Shown here one piece after another: positions 832-64,000 of a DNA stretch of 64,000 nt; positions within the stretch are counted from its first letter, which is position 1; each line of letters starts with the position of its first letter. Origin of the DNA: Rhodanobacter sp. C06 (GTDB lineage Bacteria > Pseudomonadota > Gammaproteobacteria > Xanthomonadales > Rhodanobacteraceae); NCBI RefSeq assembly GCF_002001105.1, contig NZ_MUNP01000027.1, forward strand, positions 1 through 64,000. The letters run 5' to 3'. The notes below the pieces were generated by a model. That model saw only the letters and a list, made by a program, of their open reading frames with translations, searched no databases and was not told the origin of the DNA. A program made the translations under genes and the position numbers.

Positions 832-2469
832 TCAACCCAGCAACAGGCCCGTGTCATCCATGTCGATGTCGGCCAGCCGCAACAGGCCGTGGCCGAGGAA
901 GCGGCGCAGCGCCGCCGCCGGACGCGTGTCGCCGCGCGCCTGCGCCCATGCAGCTTGCCGCGCCAGCAACGCCGCCGCCGCGCTGCGCGCGAGTGTGAGC
1001 GCCAGCCCGCGCGCACCGGCTTCCAGCGTGGCGCGATCCGTGGATGGCGCATCGAGATGGCCGGCGGCGGCATCTAGCGCGGCGTCGATCGCGAAGGCGG
1101 CGTGCGGATCGCCGCCTTGCAGCCAAGCGGCGACGACCGTGCGCAGCGCGCCGAGACCATCGCCCGCGAGTGCGCGCAGCGCGTCCAGCGACAGCACGTT
1201 GGTGGTGCCTTCCCAGATCGCGTACACCTGCGCGTCGCGCAGCAGCTGCGGCAGGCCGGTGTCCTCGATGTAGCCTTGGCCGCCGAAGCATTCCAGCGCC
1301 TCGGAACAGAGGCGCACCGCCAGCTTGCCCGTCCACAGCTTCGCCAGCGGCGTGAGCAGGCGCAGCAGCGCGGCCTCGTGCGGTGCCGCGCTGCCGTGCT
1401 CCACGCGGCCCAGCAACTGCGCCACCTCGAAGGCCAGCGCGAACGCGCTCTCGAACTCGGCCTGCATGTCCGCCAGCGTCTGTGCGTGCAGCGGTTGTTC
1501 GACCAGCGGACGGCCGAAGGCCTGCCGTCGTTCGGCATAGTCGCGGGCCAGCGCGATCGCCCGCGCCATGCTGGCGACGGCGCAGACCGCGTTCCACGTA
1601 CGGGTGACGTTGAGCATCGGCGCCACCTGGCGCACGCCGTTGGCCAACTCGCCCAGCGGCCAGGCGAGCAGGCCGTCGAGGTGGATCTCGGCGGTGGGCA
1701 GTTCCTGCGTGCCCAGCTTGTCCTTGAGGCGGTCGATCACCAATTCCGGCTTGCGCTGCGCTCCGTCCATGGTCTCCACGTAGAACAGCGCCAGTGCACC
1801 GGAACCGTGGCCCGCGCCCTCGGGTCGCGCCAGCGCCAGCGCGGCCTCGCCCACCACGGCGGAGCTGAACCACTTGCGGCCGTGCAGCCGCCACTGGCCG
1901 TCGGCATCCTGTCGCGCCACGGTTTCGGTATGGCCCACGTCCGAGCCGCCGTGCGTCTCGGTCATCCATTGGCCGCTGAGCCAGAACGTGGCCGCGTCGC
2001 GCGAGAGGAAGTGCGGCAGCGCGCGTTCGATCAGTGCGCGATTGCCCGAAGCCTTCAGCGCCGTCGCCGCGCCGTCGGTCATCGCCAGCGGACAGGTATA
2101 GAACTCGCTGGCCACGTGGTAGAGGTAGACGCGGGCGAACTCCTCCAGCCGCGCGTGTTCGTGTGCCTCGTGGCCGCTGGCGAGCACGGCGTGGCGCGTG
2201 GTGATGTCGGAGCCTTCCTGCCACGCCGTGGTCAGCTCGATGCGATCCACGCGGCGTCCCCAGGCGTCCCATTGCGTGAGCACCGGCTTGCGCCGCGTGG
2301 TGACGGCGGCGCGCTGCCACGCCATCAGTGCGTAGTCGCCCAGCGCGTCGAGGTCGGACTCCAGCGCGGCGCGGCGTGCGGCGGGCAGGGCGCGATCCAG
2401 CAGCGCGTGCAGCAGGCGTTCGCCGCGCCAGGGATGCGACAGTTGCGGGGCGTCTTGCAGGAATTCCAT
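832..2469 (-). CDS. AidB-like acyl-CoA dehydrogenase family protein
   Basis: A 545-residue flavoprotein of the acyl-CoA dehydrogenase superfamily. It resembles E. coli AidB (DNA alkylation response) rather than short-chain dehydrogenases: [13 protein letters not shown] at 166-178 corresponds to the AidB FAD-contact motif, ERLKDKLG-type and [14 protein letters not shown] segments follow, and a WEGTTNV block lies near residue 430. The start is set by a GGAG Shine-Dalgarno just upstream; the longer open frame to 3333 overlaps the DUF4328 gene and is not used. Members of this group bind FAD, and E. coli AidB also binds DNA. The substrate is unknown, and a catabolic role as an isovaleryl-CoA-type dehydrogenase remains possible. 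Confidence 0.85.
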
Positions 2470-16649: not shown

Positions 16650-16785
16650 TTGGAAGTCCGCCCAGGATGGGCGGTTTTGATGTTCAGCTCTCTCGGCATG
16701 GATGCCGCGTGGAAATTTTGAAAGTTCGCCCAGGACGGGCGGTTTTGATGTACGGCTTTTCGCGGCATGGATGCCGCGTGGAAGT
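16650..16785. repeat. Tandem pair of compound palindromes before rplY
   Basis: Two copies of a 68-base unit. Copy one: CCGCCC-AGGAT-GGGCGG (16658-16674), TTTT, then CGGCAT-GG-ATGCCG (16694-16707). Copy two: CGCCC-AGGAC-GGGCG (16727-16741), TTTT, then CGCGGCAT-GG-ATGCCGCG (16761-16778). The first hairpin of each, with its T run, could work as a weak terminator between prs and rplY. Confidence 0.75.
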
Positions 16786-25322: not shown

Positions 25323-25844
25323 ATGGCTCTCAATCTGTCCCAGAAGCAAGAAGTAGTCGCCGAGCTGGCAGAAGTCGCCGCGAAGGCCCACTCCCTGGTC
25401 GCTGTCGAGTACGCGGGCACCACGGTCGAGCAGATGACCGCGATGCGCAAGAAGGCCCGCGAAACCGGTGTGTTCCTGAAGGTTGTCAAGAACACGCTGG
25501 CGTCGCGTGCCGTGGCGGGCACCGGGTTCGAGGTCGTCAAGGACGTCCTGACCGGTCCGCTGCTGTACGCATTCTCGACCGAGGAGCCCGGCGCCGCCGG
25601 TCGCCTGATCAAGGAATTCGCCAAGAGCAACGACAAGCTGAAGGCGCGCGTCGTCTCGGTGGAAGGCAAGCTGCTGCCGGCCGCGCACGTCGACGTGCTG
25701 GCCTCGCTGCCGACCCGTGACGAGGCGCTGGCCATGCTGGCCCGCGTGCTGGCCGAGCCGGCCGCGATGTTCGCCCGCGCCGTCAAGGCCGTGGCCGACA
25801 AGCAGGGCGGTGGCGAAGCCGCCGAAGCCCCTGCGGCCGCCTGA
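25323..25844 (+). CDS. rplJ: 50S ribosomal protein L10
   Basis: A 173-residue L10, the stalk scaffold. The N-terminal domain ([20 protein letters not shown], then TAMRKKARE and KNTLASRAV) binds 23S rRNA beside L11. The C-terminal helix recruits L7/L12 dimers; an Ala-rich tail ends the protein. A strong GGAGGAG site precedes the start. It is regulated through the leader at 25050-25200 and is followed by rplL 47 bases later. Confidence 0.98.
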
Positions 25845-25891
25845 TCCCGACGACGTATCCGTAACGAATCCATTTCCAGAGGTAAATCAAA

Positions 25892-26263
25892 ATGTCCCTG
25901 AGCAACGAACAGATCGTTGAAGCCGTCGCCGCCAAGTCGCTGATGGAAGTGATGGAGCTGGTGAAGGCCATCGAAGAGAAGTTTGGCGTTTCCGCCGCTG
26001 CCCCGGTCGCAGTCGCCGCCGCCGGCGGTGCCGCTGCCCCGGCTGCCGAAGAGCAGACCGAGTTCGACGTGATCCTGAAGAGCGCCGGCGACAAGAAGGT
26101 CGACGTGATCAAGGCCGTCCGCGCGATCACGGGCCTGGGCCTGAAGGAAGCCAAGGACCTCACCGAGGCCGGTGGCGTCGTGAAGGAAGCTGCTTCGAAG
26201 GAAGACGCCGCGAAGTTCAAGAAGGACCTGGAAGCTGCTGGCGCCACGGTCGAACTGAAGTAA
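25892..26263 (+). CDS. rplL: 50S ribosomal protein L7/L12
   Basis: A 123-residue L7/L12. N-terminal dimerisation and L10-binding region, an Ala/Val-rich hinge (about 37-53), and the C-terminal domain [20 protein letters not shown]...[12 protein letters not shown] that recruits translational GTPases. The length is normal. The gene is followed by the 414-base structured spacer before rpoB. Confidence 0.98.
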
Positions 26264-26304
26264 TCGGCGCTCTTGCGCGCCGTCAGTCAGACCTAGCGCA
26301 AGCC

Positions 26305-26332
26305 AAGCCTGGGGGCGAAAGCTCCCGGGCTT
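26305..26332 (+). terminator. GAAA-tetraloop hairpin after rplL
   Basis: A 12-base-pair stem (AAGCC-T-GGGGGC with GCTCCCGGGCTT, including two or three G-T pairs) capped by GAAA, 41 bases after the rplL stop. Only TTT is available as a U tract, so it may act as a partial terminator equivalent to the rplL-rpoB attenuator of E. coli, or as an RNA-processing site. Confidence 0.6.
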
Positions 26333-26350
26333 TGGCCGCTTCAAGAGCCA

Positions 26351-26528
26351 GGCGCGGCACTCGCCGCGCCGCGGGCCAGGATGGCCCGCCGTGGATCAGG
26401 CGCTCGCGCCTGATCCAGCGGAGTCCGCAGCGGGCCAGGAAGGCCCGTCGCAGCTCAGGCGCATAGCGTCTGAGCTGGCGGAGCCCACCTTTGGTGGGCG
26501 AGTCTGGAATGGGCAGGAGCCCATTTCA
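26351..26528 (+). repeat. Seven further tandem stem-loops between rplL and rpoB
   Basis: Back-to-back hairpins: GGCGCGGC-ACTC-GCCGCGCC (26351-26370); GCGGGCC-AGGAT-GGCCCGC (26371-26389); GGATCAGGCG-CTCG-CGCCTGATCC (26393-26416); CGGGCC-AGGAA-GGCCCG (26431-26447); GCTCAGGCG-CATAG-CGTCTGAGC (26453-26475); GCCCACC-TTT-GGTGGGC (26483-26499); TGGAATGGGC-AGGA-GCCCATTTCA (26505-26528). Stems are 6 to 10 pairs, six of the seven free of mismatches apart from G-T pairs. No protein gene lies in 26264-26677. Three loops read AGGA. Confidence 0.85.
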
Positions 26529-26677
26529 GGCATATCAAGCACGGACGCTTTGGCTTTGGGGTATGGCGGTTAGGAATTCAGAACACCGAGTTCAAAACCG
26601 CGATCCCCCAGATCCAAGCATCCCCATTCAGCCGGTGCGTGCACCACCGGCGTCACTGCGAACCGAGGCGTCAACCC

Positions 26678-30838
<4,161 letters not shown>

Positions 30839-46532: not shown

Positions 46533-46573
46533 CGATCATCCGTGATCGAGAAAAACCGGCCATCCATGGCCGG
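46533..46573. repeat. Compound palindrome between rplE and rpsN
   Basis: CGATCA-TCCG-TGATCG (46533-46548), then AAAAA, then CCGGCCAT-CC-ATGGCCGG (46556-46573) followed by ACTTTTC. This is the CATCCATG sub-type, found again twice before rplQ. The A/T-flanked second hairpin could terminate weakly. Confidence 0.7.
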
Positions 46574-53557: not shown

Positions 53558-53871
53558 TGAGTTACTAGTGCGATCGTCCCTGATCGCTGTGTAGCGAGAC
53601 ATCGGCCAAGGCGTGCATAGCGCCTTGGCCGAACGTCAAAAGCGGCCACCCATGGCCGCGGCGTAATTTTTGCGATCGTCCATGATCGCTACGCCATGCG
53701 CGTTCGGTGGGCACATGTCGTGTGTTGTCGCCGGGCGCCAGAAGCGGCCATCCATGGCCGCACTCTGAATAGAAGCCCGTATCACCAAGGGCCTCATCAG
53801 CGGGCAACCGCGGGAAGCTGGACACAATCGCCGGCTTTTCATAACAACAGACCTGTAGAGAGTATTCCGCC
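53558..53871. repeat. rpoA-rplQ spacer with duplicated palindromes
   Basis: No gene is visible. Two copies of a unit: GCGATC-GTCCCT-GATCGC (53570-53587) with GCGGCCA-CCCA-TGGCCGC (53642-53659), and GCGATC-GTCCAT-GATCGC (53672-53689) with GCGGCCAT-CC-ATGGCCGC (53744-53761). Between them is a perfect 11-pair hairpin CGGCCAAGGCG/CGCCTTGGCCG (53603-53631). GTAATTTTT follows the first GCGGCCA hairpin and could terminate transcription. I see no strong promoter for rplQ. Confidence 0.75.
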
Positions 53872-62062: not shown

Positions 62063-63098
62063 GTGCGCAGGCTCCCCCTCTCCCGCTGGAGGAAGAGGGG
62101 GTTGGGGAGAGGGGCTTTTCTCGTCGCGCTCTCGCAAGATTCAAAGCGGTTTCGTCCACCTGCCGGTGGCCGAGCTACTTCTCTTTTGCTTGTCCACGCA
62201 TGCGCAGGAGCGCATGCGAACAGCGAAGCTGGCCCGCAAGGGCGAAGGGCAGGATGCCCGGAGTCAAAGAGAAGTAGCCAAGAGAAAAAGACACCCCGCG
62301 GCGGCGCTTTCCACCCATCCATGGGCGGAAAGTCCGTGATCCGTGGCCGGGCTTTTCGAGCGGGCTCCTGCCCGCGCGAAAAGGCGAGCCCATCCATGGC
62401 CTCGCCCGCTGCGCGGCCTTGTCGTCCACGCCTCACCGCCGCCGAGGGGCCCCACAAGAGCCGGTGCGCATCGTGCGCGCCAGAAGCAACAGCGAGAGCA
62501 AAAGCAGGGCGATGCAAGCGTGTTGTCTCCCTCCCCTGCCTGCAGGGGAGGGCCGGGGTGGGGTGCTCTTGCCGTTGTTTCTGCGCGCAGGAGCGCGCTG
62601 CTTCACCCGGGCCCCCTATGGCGCGGCGGGTGGGTGGAGGAAAGTCCGCAGGATGGCCCGCAGGGATGCGGGCCAGTTTTCCGCCGGCACACGGAGGTGC
62701 CGTCGGAAAACCCCGTAACCCGCCCGCGCACCCGTAGCCCATGGGTGGGCGCAGGGCGCGCCATCGGGGGGCCGTTTCTCTTTGGCTACTTTCTCTTGAC
62801 TCCGGGCATCCTGCCCTCCGCCCTTCGGGCCAGCTTCCGCTGTTCGCCGCCGCTCCTGCGGCGGCGTGGACAAGCAAAAGAGAAGTAGCTCGGGCGCCGG
62901 CAGGCGTCCGAAACCGCTTTGAAGCGCGTGCAAGCACAGAAGCAGAAACCCCCCTCACCCCAACCCTCTCCCCCAACGGACAAACTGTTGGGGGAGAGGG
63001 AGCAATCGCATCCCGCAAGTAGGTGAAGGGAGTCGGATACCGACAGGTATCCGATACCGCCTCGAACCTCGCGCAAATCGGGCAACCGCGATGCATGT
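62063..63098. repeat. One-kilobase intergenic repeat island
   Basis: No credible gene. Two arms of about 160 bases (62130-62290 and 62774-62932) are imperfect inverted copies, each with CTACTT(C)TCTTTTGCTTGTCCA- and GGATGCCCGGAGTCAAGAG-like blocks. Inside are nested hairpins (CCTCCCCTGC/GCAGGGGAGG near 62536; TTTTCCG...CGGAAAA near 62676-62710). Outside the right arm are CCCTCTCCCCCAAC/GTTGGGGGAGAGGG (62964-63000) and TCGGATACC-GACA-GGTATCCGA (63033-63054). Xanthomonadales genomes carry many such mosaic elements. Confidence 0.75.
62964..63000. repeat. CTCTCCCCCAAC long hairpin
   Basis: Fourteen perfect base pairs (62964-62977 with 62987-63000) around a 9-base loop GGACAAACT. This is the CCCTCACCCCAACCC...GGGGAGAGGG intergenic repeat type, here just downstream of gspI on the minus strand, where it could terminate transcription. 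Confidence 0.7.
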
Positions 63099-63509: not shown

Positions 63510-64000
63510 CGCGCCACCACCTGGTCCACCACCGCGACCTGCCCGGTGAGCCACGACACGTTGATGCGCCACTGGCGGCGGCCGCTGGCCAGGGTGATGT
63601 GGCCGCCGGTGGAGCTGCCGTCGGGGAAGAAGCGGATGCGCCCGGTGTGCTGGTCCGGGCGATCTTCCAGCGCGCTGGTGATCGAGAGTTTCAGGCCCTT
63701 GGGCAGGCGCACGTCCTTCCGCTTCGCGTCGCTGTACGTGTCGCTGCGGACATCCACATCGAAATGCTGTTCCTTGCCCTGCACGATGGCCTGTGCGCGC
63801 GTGGCGCGCAGCGCGGCGGCGATCTCGCCGCTGGCCGCATTGATGCGCGCGCTGGCCAGCCCCTGGGTCACCGACACCGCGACCGCCGCCGCCGCGATGC
63901 CGATCAGCACGATCACCACCAGCATTTCGAGCAGGGTGAAGCCGCGCCCGCATCGCCACGCTCCCGTCGCCTGTGTGGCAGGGAATCCGGGCTCGCATGG
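63506..64000 (-). CDS. gspH: Type II secretion pseudopilin GspH (5' end unresolved)
   Basis: A GspH/FimT-like pseudopilin: RG|FTLLEMLVVIVLIGIAAAAV signature helix, then ALRATRAQAIVQGKEQHFDV and RIRFFPDGSSTGGHITLASG, both typical of GspH. The frame is open to the right window edge, but codons upstream of the prepilin motif contain no ATG, GTG or TTG; the nearest ATG (CGATGCGGGCGCGGC) is one base out of frame. Either the gene starts beyond 64000 or a one-base shift has occurred near 63945-63955. Confidence 0.75.
   Translation of the reverse strand, partial: PCEPGFPATQATGAWRCGRGFTLLEMLVVIVLIGIAAAAVAVSVTQGLASARINAASGEIAAALRATRAQAIVQGKEQHFDVDVRSDTYSDAKRKDVRLPKGLKLSITSALEDRPDQHTGRIRFFPDGSSTGGHITLASGRRQWRINVSWLTGQVAVVDQVVAR

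Follow-up and report, generated by a model that had tools for sequence, protein, structure and literature searches.

A dispersed hairpin module with exposed GGA motifs in the rplL-rpoB spacer of Rhodanobacter sp. C06 and behind other genes

Hairpins of the rplL-rpoB spacer

The DNA analyzed here, referred to as the window, was the 64,000-nucleotide stretch from position 1 to position 64,000 (forward strand) of contig NZ_MUNP01000027.1 of Rhodanobacter sp. C06. In this window, the rplL gene for ribosomal protein L7/L12 (25892..26263, + strand) was recognized from its open reading frame and protein sequence, and the downstream rpoB gene (26678..30838, + strand) was recognized from a gene call and its protein sequence. 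The spacer between them was 414 bases long (26264-26677). The rplL-rpoB spacer of E. coli carries an attenuator and an RNase III site. In the window, eight adjacent hairpins had been predicted at 26305-26528; all eight could be drawn at that place, and each of them folded alone.

Folding also placed the array far outside what chance would give. The spacer reached -251.9 kcal/mol, compared to -181.5 +/- 6.0 kcal/mol for 100 dinucleotide shuffles (z of -11.8), and 0 of the 100 shuffles folded as low. The 224-base stretch at 26305-26528 reached -157.5 kcal/mol, and 2 of 8220 segments of equal length, taken in steps of 112 along both strands of 464 kb from this genome, folded as low or lower. A strict scan of the same 464 kb returned five intergenic rows of at least three strong, closely spaced hairpins, three of which were members of the family described below, and overlooked family copies within its sample, at least C82:42727 and C33:56167.

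The hairpins, all on the + strand, were of different kinds. The first (26302..26337; loop GAAA; -29.3 kcal/mol) was an old, attenuator-like rplL-rpoB hairpin that lay outside the dispersed module. The second (26351..26370; loop ACTC) preceded the module at a position that we call H0, folded with two fully complementary 8-base arms, and varied among species of the genus. The remaining six belonged to the module, which was recognized with a covariance model, R1, built from an alignment, A1, of ten modules (nine rplL-rpoB copies and one paralogue). An extra half-module came first (R1 half match at 26372-26421, E of 6.8e-11). It consisted of hairpin H1 (26371..26389; 8 pairs; loop CAGGATG, with the AGGAT of the original prediction) and hairpin H2 with the GCGGAG that follows it (26390..26423; hairpin at 26390-26419, loop CTCG, two 12-base arms with full complementarity). 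The full module followed at 26430..26565 (R1 positions 1-135; 147.5 bits; E of 9.9e-35, for a sequence that was itself among the ten used to build R1). Here, H1 (26430..26447) folded with loop CAGGAAG (AGGAA), and H2 (26449..26482; hairpin at 26449-26480, loop CATAG) had complementary arms that folded alone. The end of H2 reached into the H2-H3 junction, GGCGGAGCC (26477-26485), which contained a GGA. H3 (26483..26499; loop TTT) folded and was followed by GCGAGTC, and H4 (26504..26529) had two 11-base arms that were 91% complementary and loop GCAGGAGC (AGGA). The conserved tail, ATCAAGCACGGACGCTTTGGCTTT (26534..26557), may form a weak fifth hairpin (A1 helix 6, columns 123-126 with 133-136, 97.5% of cells paired). 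Two more structures fell beyond the range of the original prediction: a long imperfect hairpin (26548..26620; -36.0 kcal/mol; 30-base arms, 77% complementary) that overlapped the tail and was not part of the module, and a hairpin preceding rpoB, GCCGGTGCGTGCACCACCGGC (26632..26650), which folded and was common to many spacers of the family.

The count of eight hairpins merges two unlike parts, an old, order-wide first hairpin and a repeated module (hairpins 3-8) with its first half doubled. One reason for the high count was that the first half of the module was present twice in G000 and G013. A tandem repeat was rejected as a description of the array; TRF found none at 26200-26700, and the doubled part was the first half of the module. 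No intrinsic terminator (GC-rich hairpin plus T run; 0 sites) and no sigma-70 promoter were found at 25800-26800, so termination inside the module had no sequence support.

For a comparison of spacers, rplL was matched in 37 of 41 genomes. Of 30 loci retrieved, 26 had a spacer with definable limits, 11 from the same genus and 15 from other genera; the spacers at L031, L034, L038, and L040 were unreadable, and seven further rplL-bearing genomes fell outside the fetched loci. The first hairpin was present in 26 of 26 readable spacers, recognized by its pattern in 25 of them and by eye in G003, about 30-40 bases after the rplL stop codon, as AAGCCTGGGGGC....GCCCCCGGGCTTTG or a compensated form, with swaps between GCCT and GGCT matched by a compensating change on the opposite arm. 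Judging from its place, this hairpin would be the natural counterpart of the E. coli attenuator and may act by partial termination. Only the first hairpin fit an attenuator, and the other hairpins were not part of it.

The four-hairpin module was found in 9 of the 11 readable spacers of the same genus (G000, G001, G002, G003, G004, G006, G008, G010, and G013). By eye, it was missing from the rplL-rpoB spacers of G009 and G012, which belong to the same genus, and it was not seen in any of the 15 readable spacers from other genera. Different inverted repeats were present in several of these 15. A long inverted repeat of the GGGAATGGAGAATAGGGAATCG type stood in place of the module in the rplL-rpoB spacers of G009, G012, G016, G021, and G023. 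A search of 38 loci from named genomes located the module between rplL and rpoB in two, those of Rhodanobacter sp. DHG33 and a Lysobacteraceae metagenome assembly; the remaining five matches were two opposite-strand shadows and three weak matches elsewhere. Two other Rhodanobacter loci, from B05 and MP7CTX1, had no match.

Dispersal, anatomy, and covariation of the module

A DNA search of the genome of strain C06 returned weak matches to pieces of the array elsewhere, as fragments only. When these fragments were read in context, the hairpins proved to be arranged in the same order but built from different stems. R1 gave 27 matches in this genome at E <= 1; 21 were below 1e-8, one of which was the extra half-module. 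Among the matches listed, R1 was matched in 20 of 41 genomes overall and in 13 of the 15 genomes from the genus, each with 1 to 22 matches, and G011 and G012 had no match. When more of the order was sampled and the filters were tightened, an R1 match at 1e-5 was present in 15 of 151 genomes. Copies were often found in likely operons, such as rplL-rpoB, ffh-rpsP, thyA-folA, and probably tamA-tamB (gene names assigned by eye from protein ends), and a copy also lay behind tsf. The same module thus stood behind many other genes, which argues against the array being a special device of the rpoBC operon, as had been proposed.

For the analysis of structure, 92 matches from 77 loci, a subset of all R1 matches, were aligned (A2). 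Eighty-three of the 92 were used and were grouped into 41 loci by their flanking DNA; the nine rows left out were two half-modules, one duplicate (L096 = L133), and six matches that merely shadowed a palindromic copy from the opposite strand. The unit was ~140 nt long. H1 was a stem of at least 6 pairs with loop CANGGATG, and H2 was a long stem with a variable loop. The H2-H3 junction was CGGAGCC, H3 was variable, and the H3-H4 junction was GCGAGTC or GCGAGCC. H4 was a long stem with loop GCAGGA, followed by a tail like ATCAGGCACGGCGCTTTTGCT. Many copies had, ahead of H1, the extra hairpin H0, which could take in the stop codon. Five loci (L066, L069, L115, L147, and L086) appeared by eye to form a subfamily in which TGAAAAA and TTTTTCA ends bordered H0 and the last hairpin; this may be a further mobile version.

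Pairing was kept through compensatory, two-sided changes in related genomes. In A1, which was not fitted to the model and from which its own structure was nevertheless derived, 18 of 45 pairs showed a two-sided change and 95.5% of cells were paired; 0 of 500 shuffles reached either value, 4 of 500 reached the number of further pair types, and slid structures paired at 30-43%. In A2 (89 distinct rows), 38 of 41 pairs showed a two-sided change, with 960 two-sided cells, and 96.9% of cells were paired, compared to 32-42% for slid structures; these counts lean toward the model because A2 was fitted to it and contained the nine rows dropped elsewhere. Between loci, identity was 0.54-0.69 in the 5' arms and 0.83-0.95 in the loops and junctions. 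Within single ortholog groups, the contrast between stems and loops was smaller, and in the pgl-edd group the H1 stem (0.94) was more conserved than the H1 loop (0.78). In that group, entire H3 stems were swapped between species with pairing kept.

The GGA motif was present in loop 1 in 38 of 41 loci and in loop 4 also in 38. The H2-H3 junction contained it in 40 loci, and loop 2 in only 1. It was also present in the H3 loop region in 18 of 41 loci, where the stretch counted includes stem bases. Of the 41 loci, 31 had CANGGATG as loop 1 and 2 had CAGGATG; the two H1 loops of the window, CAGGATG and CAGGAAG, were one base shorter than the CANGGATG form. Thus, the stems were free in sequence and nonetheless paired, and three GGA motifs, two in loops and one at a junction, were fixed.

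The family is recognized by its shape and a few short exposed motifs, not by shared sequence as dispersed bacterial repeats usually are, and its stems amount to an unusually rich natural covariation experiment. Because only the shape and short motifs are shared, sequence-based searches and Rfam miss it. Rfam identified only tRNAs over the window and gave weak matches, all far below cut-off, over four loci of the family. We know of no described family of such dispersed GGA hairpin modules, and in the open-access literature, mostly at the level of listings, the element was not found described.

Position, strand, and stop codons

Genes around the copies were called with a purpose-made codon model. 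The upstream gene was on the same strand as the module in 35 of 41 loci; five loci were antisense, and one was without a gene call. None of the 41 loci lay between divergent genes, compared to 43 of 195 gaps that were divergent in a sample of gaps of at least 100 bases. In 33 of the 35 sense loci, the start of the module fell at -46 to +41 bases relative to the stop codon of the gene call, and the other two began at 105 bases (rplL) and 930 bases; the full module at rplL began 166 nt past the stop codon. Isolated stem mismatches, counted in one copy per locus, were G.U in 29 cases and A.C in 11 (~0.003 by a hand sign test). The numbers were 55 and 34 over all 83 copies, compared to 266 and 262 in flanking DNA. 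The strand bias and the G.U excess suggested that the module acts at the level of the RNA strand.

The stop codon itself often lay inside a stem. Sixty copies had a sense stop codon no more than 80 bases away, and 22 of them (16 of 33 loci) held it in a stem of 9-21 pairs, in the 5' arm in 20 copies and in the 3' arm in 2. Among 404 control genes, the stop codon lay in a stem in 19, with 8 cases in the 5' arm and 11 in the 3' arm. L052 and L113 differed in their stop codons (TAG versus TAA), and the partner arm changed to match. How an arm comes to pair with the closing bases of the upstream gene, including its stop codon, is a question of hairpin evolution.

Facing pairs of elements, with one copy per strand, were found at L101, L097, L061, L134, and L045/L079. 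At L101, L097, L061, and L134, the pairs lay between convergent genes, with each copy behind its own gene. In the pgl-edd facing pair, one copy was antisense to both genes, yet it was kept in nine species.

GGA-loop hairpins of other kinds were also present in the window. Hairpins with CANGGATG loops lay antisense in its ribosomal operons, and at 46533-46573 and 53570-53761, in gaps of ribosomal protein operons and on the strand opposite the genes, we observed GGA-loop hairpins CATGGATG, CACGGATG, and CAGGGACG, among others.

Possible roles of the module and its relation to known systems

Kept structure, stems free in sequence, GGA motifs in loops and at a junction, and a sense position behind stop codons are what would be expected of a 3'-UTR RNA with a ligand that reads GGA. 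Our preferred explanation, to which we assigned a probability of about 0.45, was that hairpins 3-8 are a copy of a dispersed 3'-UTR RNA element that is jointly a guard of the 3' end and a site for RsmA/CsrA. The folded RNA would close off the upstream coding part at its 3' end and protect it from 3'-5' exonucleases, and this sealing would set the upstream level apart from that of the next gene, in this case rplJL relative to rpoBC. The GGA loops and junction may bind dimers of the single RsmA/CsrA of the genome, and the copies might serve as RsmA sites within the mRNA or give rise to sponges like RsmU; such RsmA binding is suggested by motif and architecture. The genome contained one CsrA gene, which was complete. 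The SELEX consensus for CsrA, RUACARGGAUGU, was located mostly within hairpin loops (PMC7652899), and loop 1 of most copies was CANGGATG. Because the exposed GGA was the most conserved part of the array, a CsrA-like protein was the best of the binding and processing guesses made in the original prediction.

RsmZ, RsmY, RsmX, CsrB, and CsrC are sponges encoded by separate small RNA genes, and each is a row of hairpins whose loops and single-stranded junctions carry GGA. The module resembled them in its row of hairpins and its exposed GGA and differed in not being a separate small RNA gene. The searches (all of Rfam over the window and the four loci, and RsmZ, RF00166, over the genome) gave no match to the CsrB/RsmX/Y/Z families above cut-off, and the RsmV model scored 20.3 bits on one copy (cut-off 100). 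The best RsmZ match in the genome was elsewhere, at 28.9 bits (cut-off 44). It lay at L257 ~1440-1660 (reverse strand), where two GGA hairpins were followed by a strong terminator-like hairpin. This could possibly be a separate RsmA-binding small RNA; weak matches to the RsmZ model are common, being found in 8 of 14 control genomes as well. TwoAYGGAY RNA (RF01731) has hairpin loops of the form AYGGAY, a form shared with H1 of most copies, and its model gave no match over the genome above the gathering score of 43 (best match, 23.7 bits, elsewhere). That RNA is listed in a table of PMC2864571.

Among the closest known systems was RsmU (sRX061) of Xanthomonas campestris, a member of the same order. 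This RNA is derived from a 3'-UTR, has four GGA motifs, and binds RsmA (PMC7694677), and the module had the same feature of several GGA motifs in loops or single strands of a folded RNA. RsmU differs in being a single locus with sequence conserved at >90%, reported in Xanthomonas only (PMC7694677), whereas the module occupied many loci in another genus, with free stems and a putative RsmA site. No CsrB or RsmX/Y/Z homologue was reported to be found in Xanthomonas (PMC7694677). If RsmA binds the module, it would be one way in which bacteria of this order (with CsrB/RsmY-type RNAs reported missing from Xanthomonas; PMC7694677) might tune RsmA, and it would place such sites behind rplL and other core genes.

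Several points count against the preferred explanation. Five loci were antisense, the H1 loops of the window were one base short, GGA hairpins lay antisense in the window, the contrast between stems and loops was weaker within a locus, and a relative in G027 looked mobile. RsmU with GGA changed to AAU at all four motifs retained both RsmA binding and its effect (PMC7694677). In the SELEX study of CsrA, the ligands mostly had at most 4 contiguous pairs, and high structural stability may be a disadvantage (PMC7652899). An extended form of the RsmA reading seemed rather unlikely to us. In this form, a genus-wide distributed RsmA-binding system would comprise up to ~20 mRNAs per genome, several of them from core genes, each with a cassette anchored at the stop codon. 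Any paired stems would serve, even the end of the gene itself, and little beyond the three GGA sites and the junctions would be fixed; the pool of these mRNAs would set free RsmA without a dedicated sponge, and the cassette could ride on a miniature transposon.

A different possibility, which we considered somewhat doubtful, was that the module is a palindromic repeat of the MITE or REP kind, a miniature element that is mobile or selfish and inserts behind genes, with its structure serving movement at the DNA level and any effect on mRNA being secondary. The main support came from G027, a genome from another family of the order with 71 R1 matches among the matches listed. The 17 copies read there (L116-L132; for example, L117 at ~1490-1710) looked near-identical, were five hairpins long, and mostly started with GGAG and ended with CTCC. 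In 12 of the 17 (13 if L124, whose end was one base shorter, is included), the same four bases stood on both sides (e.g., TTAG, CTAA, CTAG, and TTAA; nearly all YTAR, with L116, L119, L122, and L129 differing). Such flanks are the mark of a miniature transposon, and they show that the fold can travel; these copies looked like a recently active miniature transposon with the same fold. In its 4-base duplications and its many near-identical copies, the G027 version was like MITEs with YTAR duplications of the IS5 type. Nothing was drawn from the orientation of the G027 copies because the gene calls were poor (the codon model had been derived either from a different genome or from a single short piece of a gene). 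Match numbers that ranged from 0 to 22 within the genus, among the matches listed, the facing pairs of copies, and two genes of the Y1_Tnp (REP-transposase) type in the C06 genome also favored mobility. However, the two Y1_Tnp loci as fetched held no R1 match, and a link to the REP transposase was rejected. The copies in the genus differed from locus to locus in their stems, showed by eye neither shared ends nor target duplications, and were not near-identical, and the strong bias in position and strand and the excess of G.U over A.C argued for action as RNA. REP and BIME elements are likewise dispersed, extragenic, palindromic, present in multiple copies, and often near stop codons. Those of E. 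coli share a common consensus over 14-40 nt (PMC12306157), whereas the stems of the module shared little over a much longer unit. The element would combine traits of REP elements with those of RsmA-binding RNAs, yet it lacks a REP consensus and falls below the cut-offs of the sponge models tested.

Three further explanations were considered. The module might be only a barrier in mRNA processing or stability (RNase III or RNase E sites, or protection of the 3' end, as with the REP in malE-malF), with GGA serving a role other than RsmA binding, such as the fold of the junction. The stable stems close after stop codons, often within likely operons, fit this explanation, which we considered similarly doubtful to the mobile one; it leaves unexplained why GGA was fixed while the stems drifted. 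That a stem at the stop codon and the array behind it delay the ribosome at termination, so that less of the upstream protein is made, appeared improbable. REPs of E. coli that lie <16 nt from the stop codon have this effect, as quoted in PMC12306157, and 22 of 60 copies held the stop codon in a stem, but 38 of 60 did not, and the full module at rplL began far behind the stop codon. Least probable was an attenuator cluster specific to rpoBC, as proposed in the original prediction. The array sits where the attenuator of E. coli lies, and the first hairpin was in every readable spacer. The module, in contrast, was dispersed across the genome and seen in none of the readable spacers of other genera, and the region had no terminator-like site; for hairpins 3-8, the dispersal led us to reject a cluster of attenuators confined to rpoBC.

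Two other repeat structures were observed in the window. In an intergenic gap at 16658-16778, hairpins of the GCCCAGGATGGGC and GGCATGGATGCC types alternated and were repeated. At 62150-62900, a 750-base stretch was largely self-complementary (-539 kcal/mol), with several GGA-loop hairpins and repeated ends, and had the form of a composite inverted repeat.
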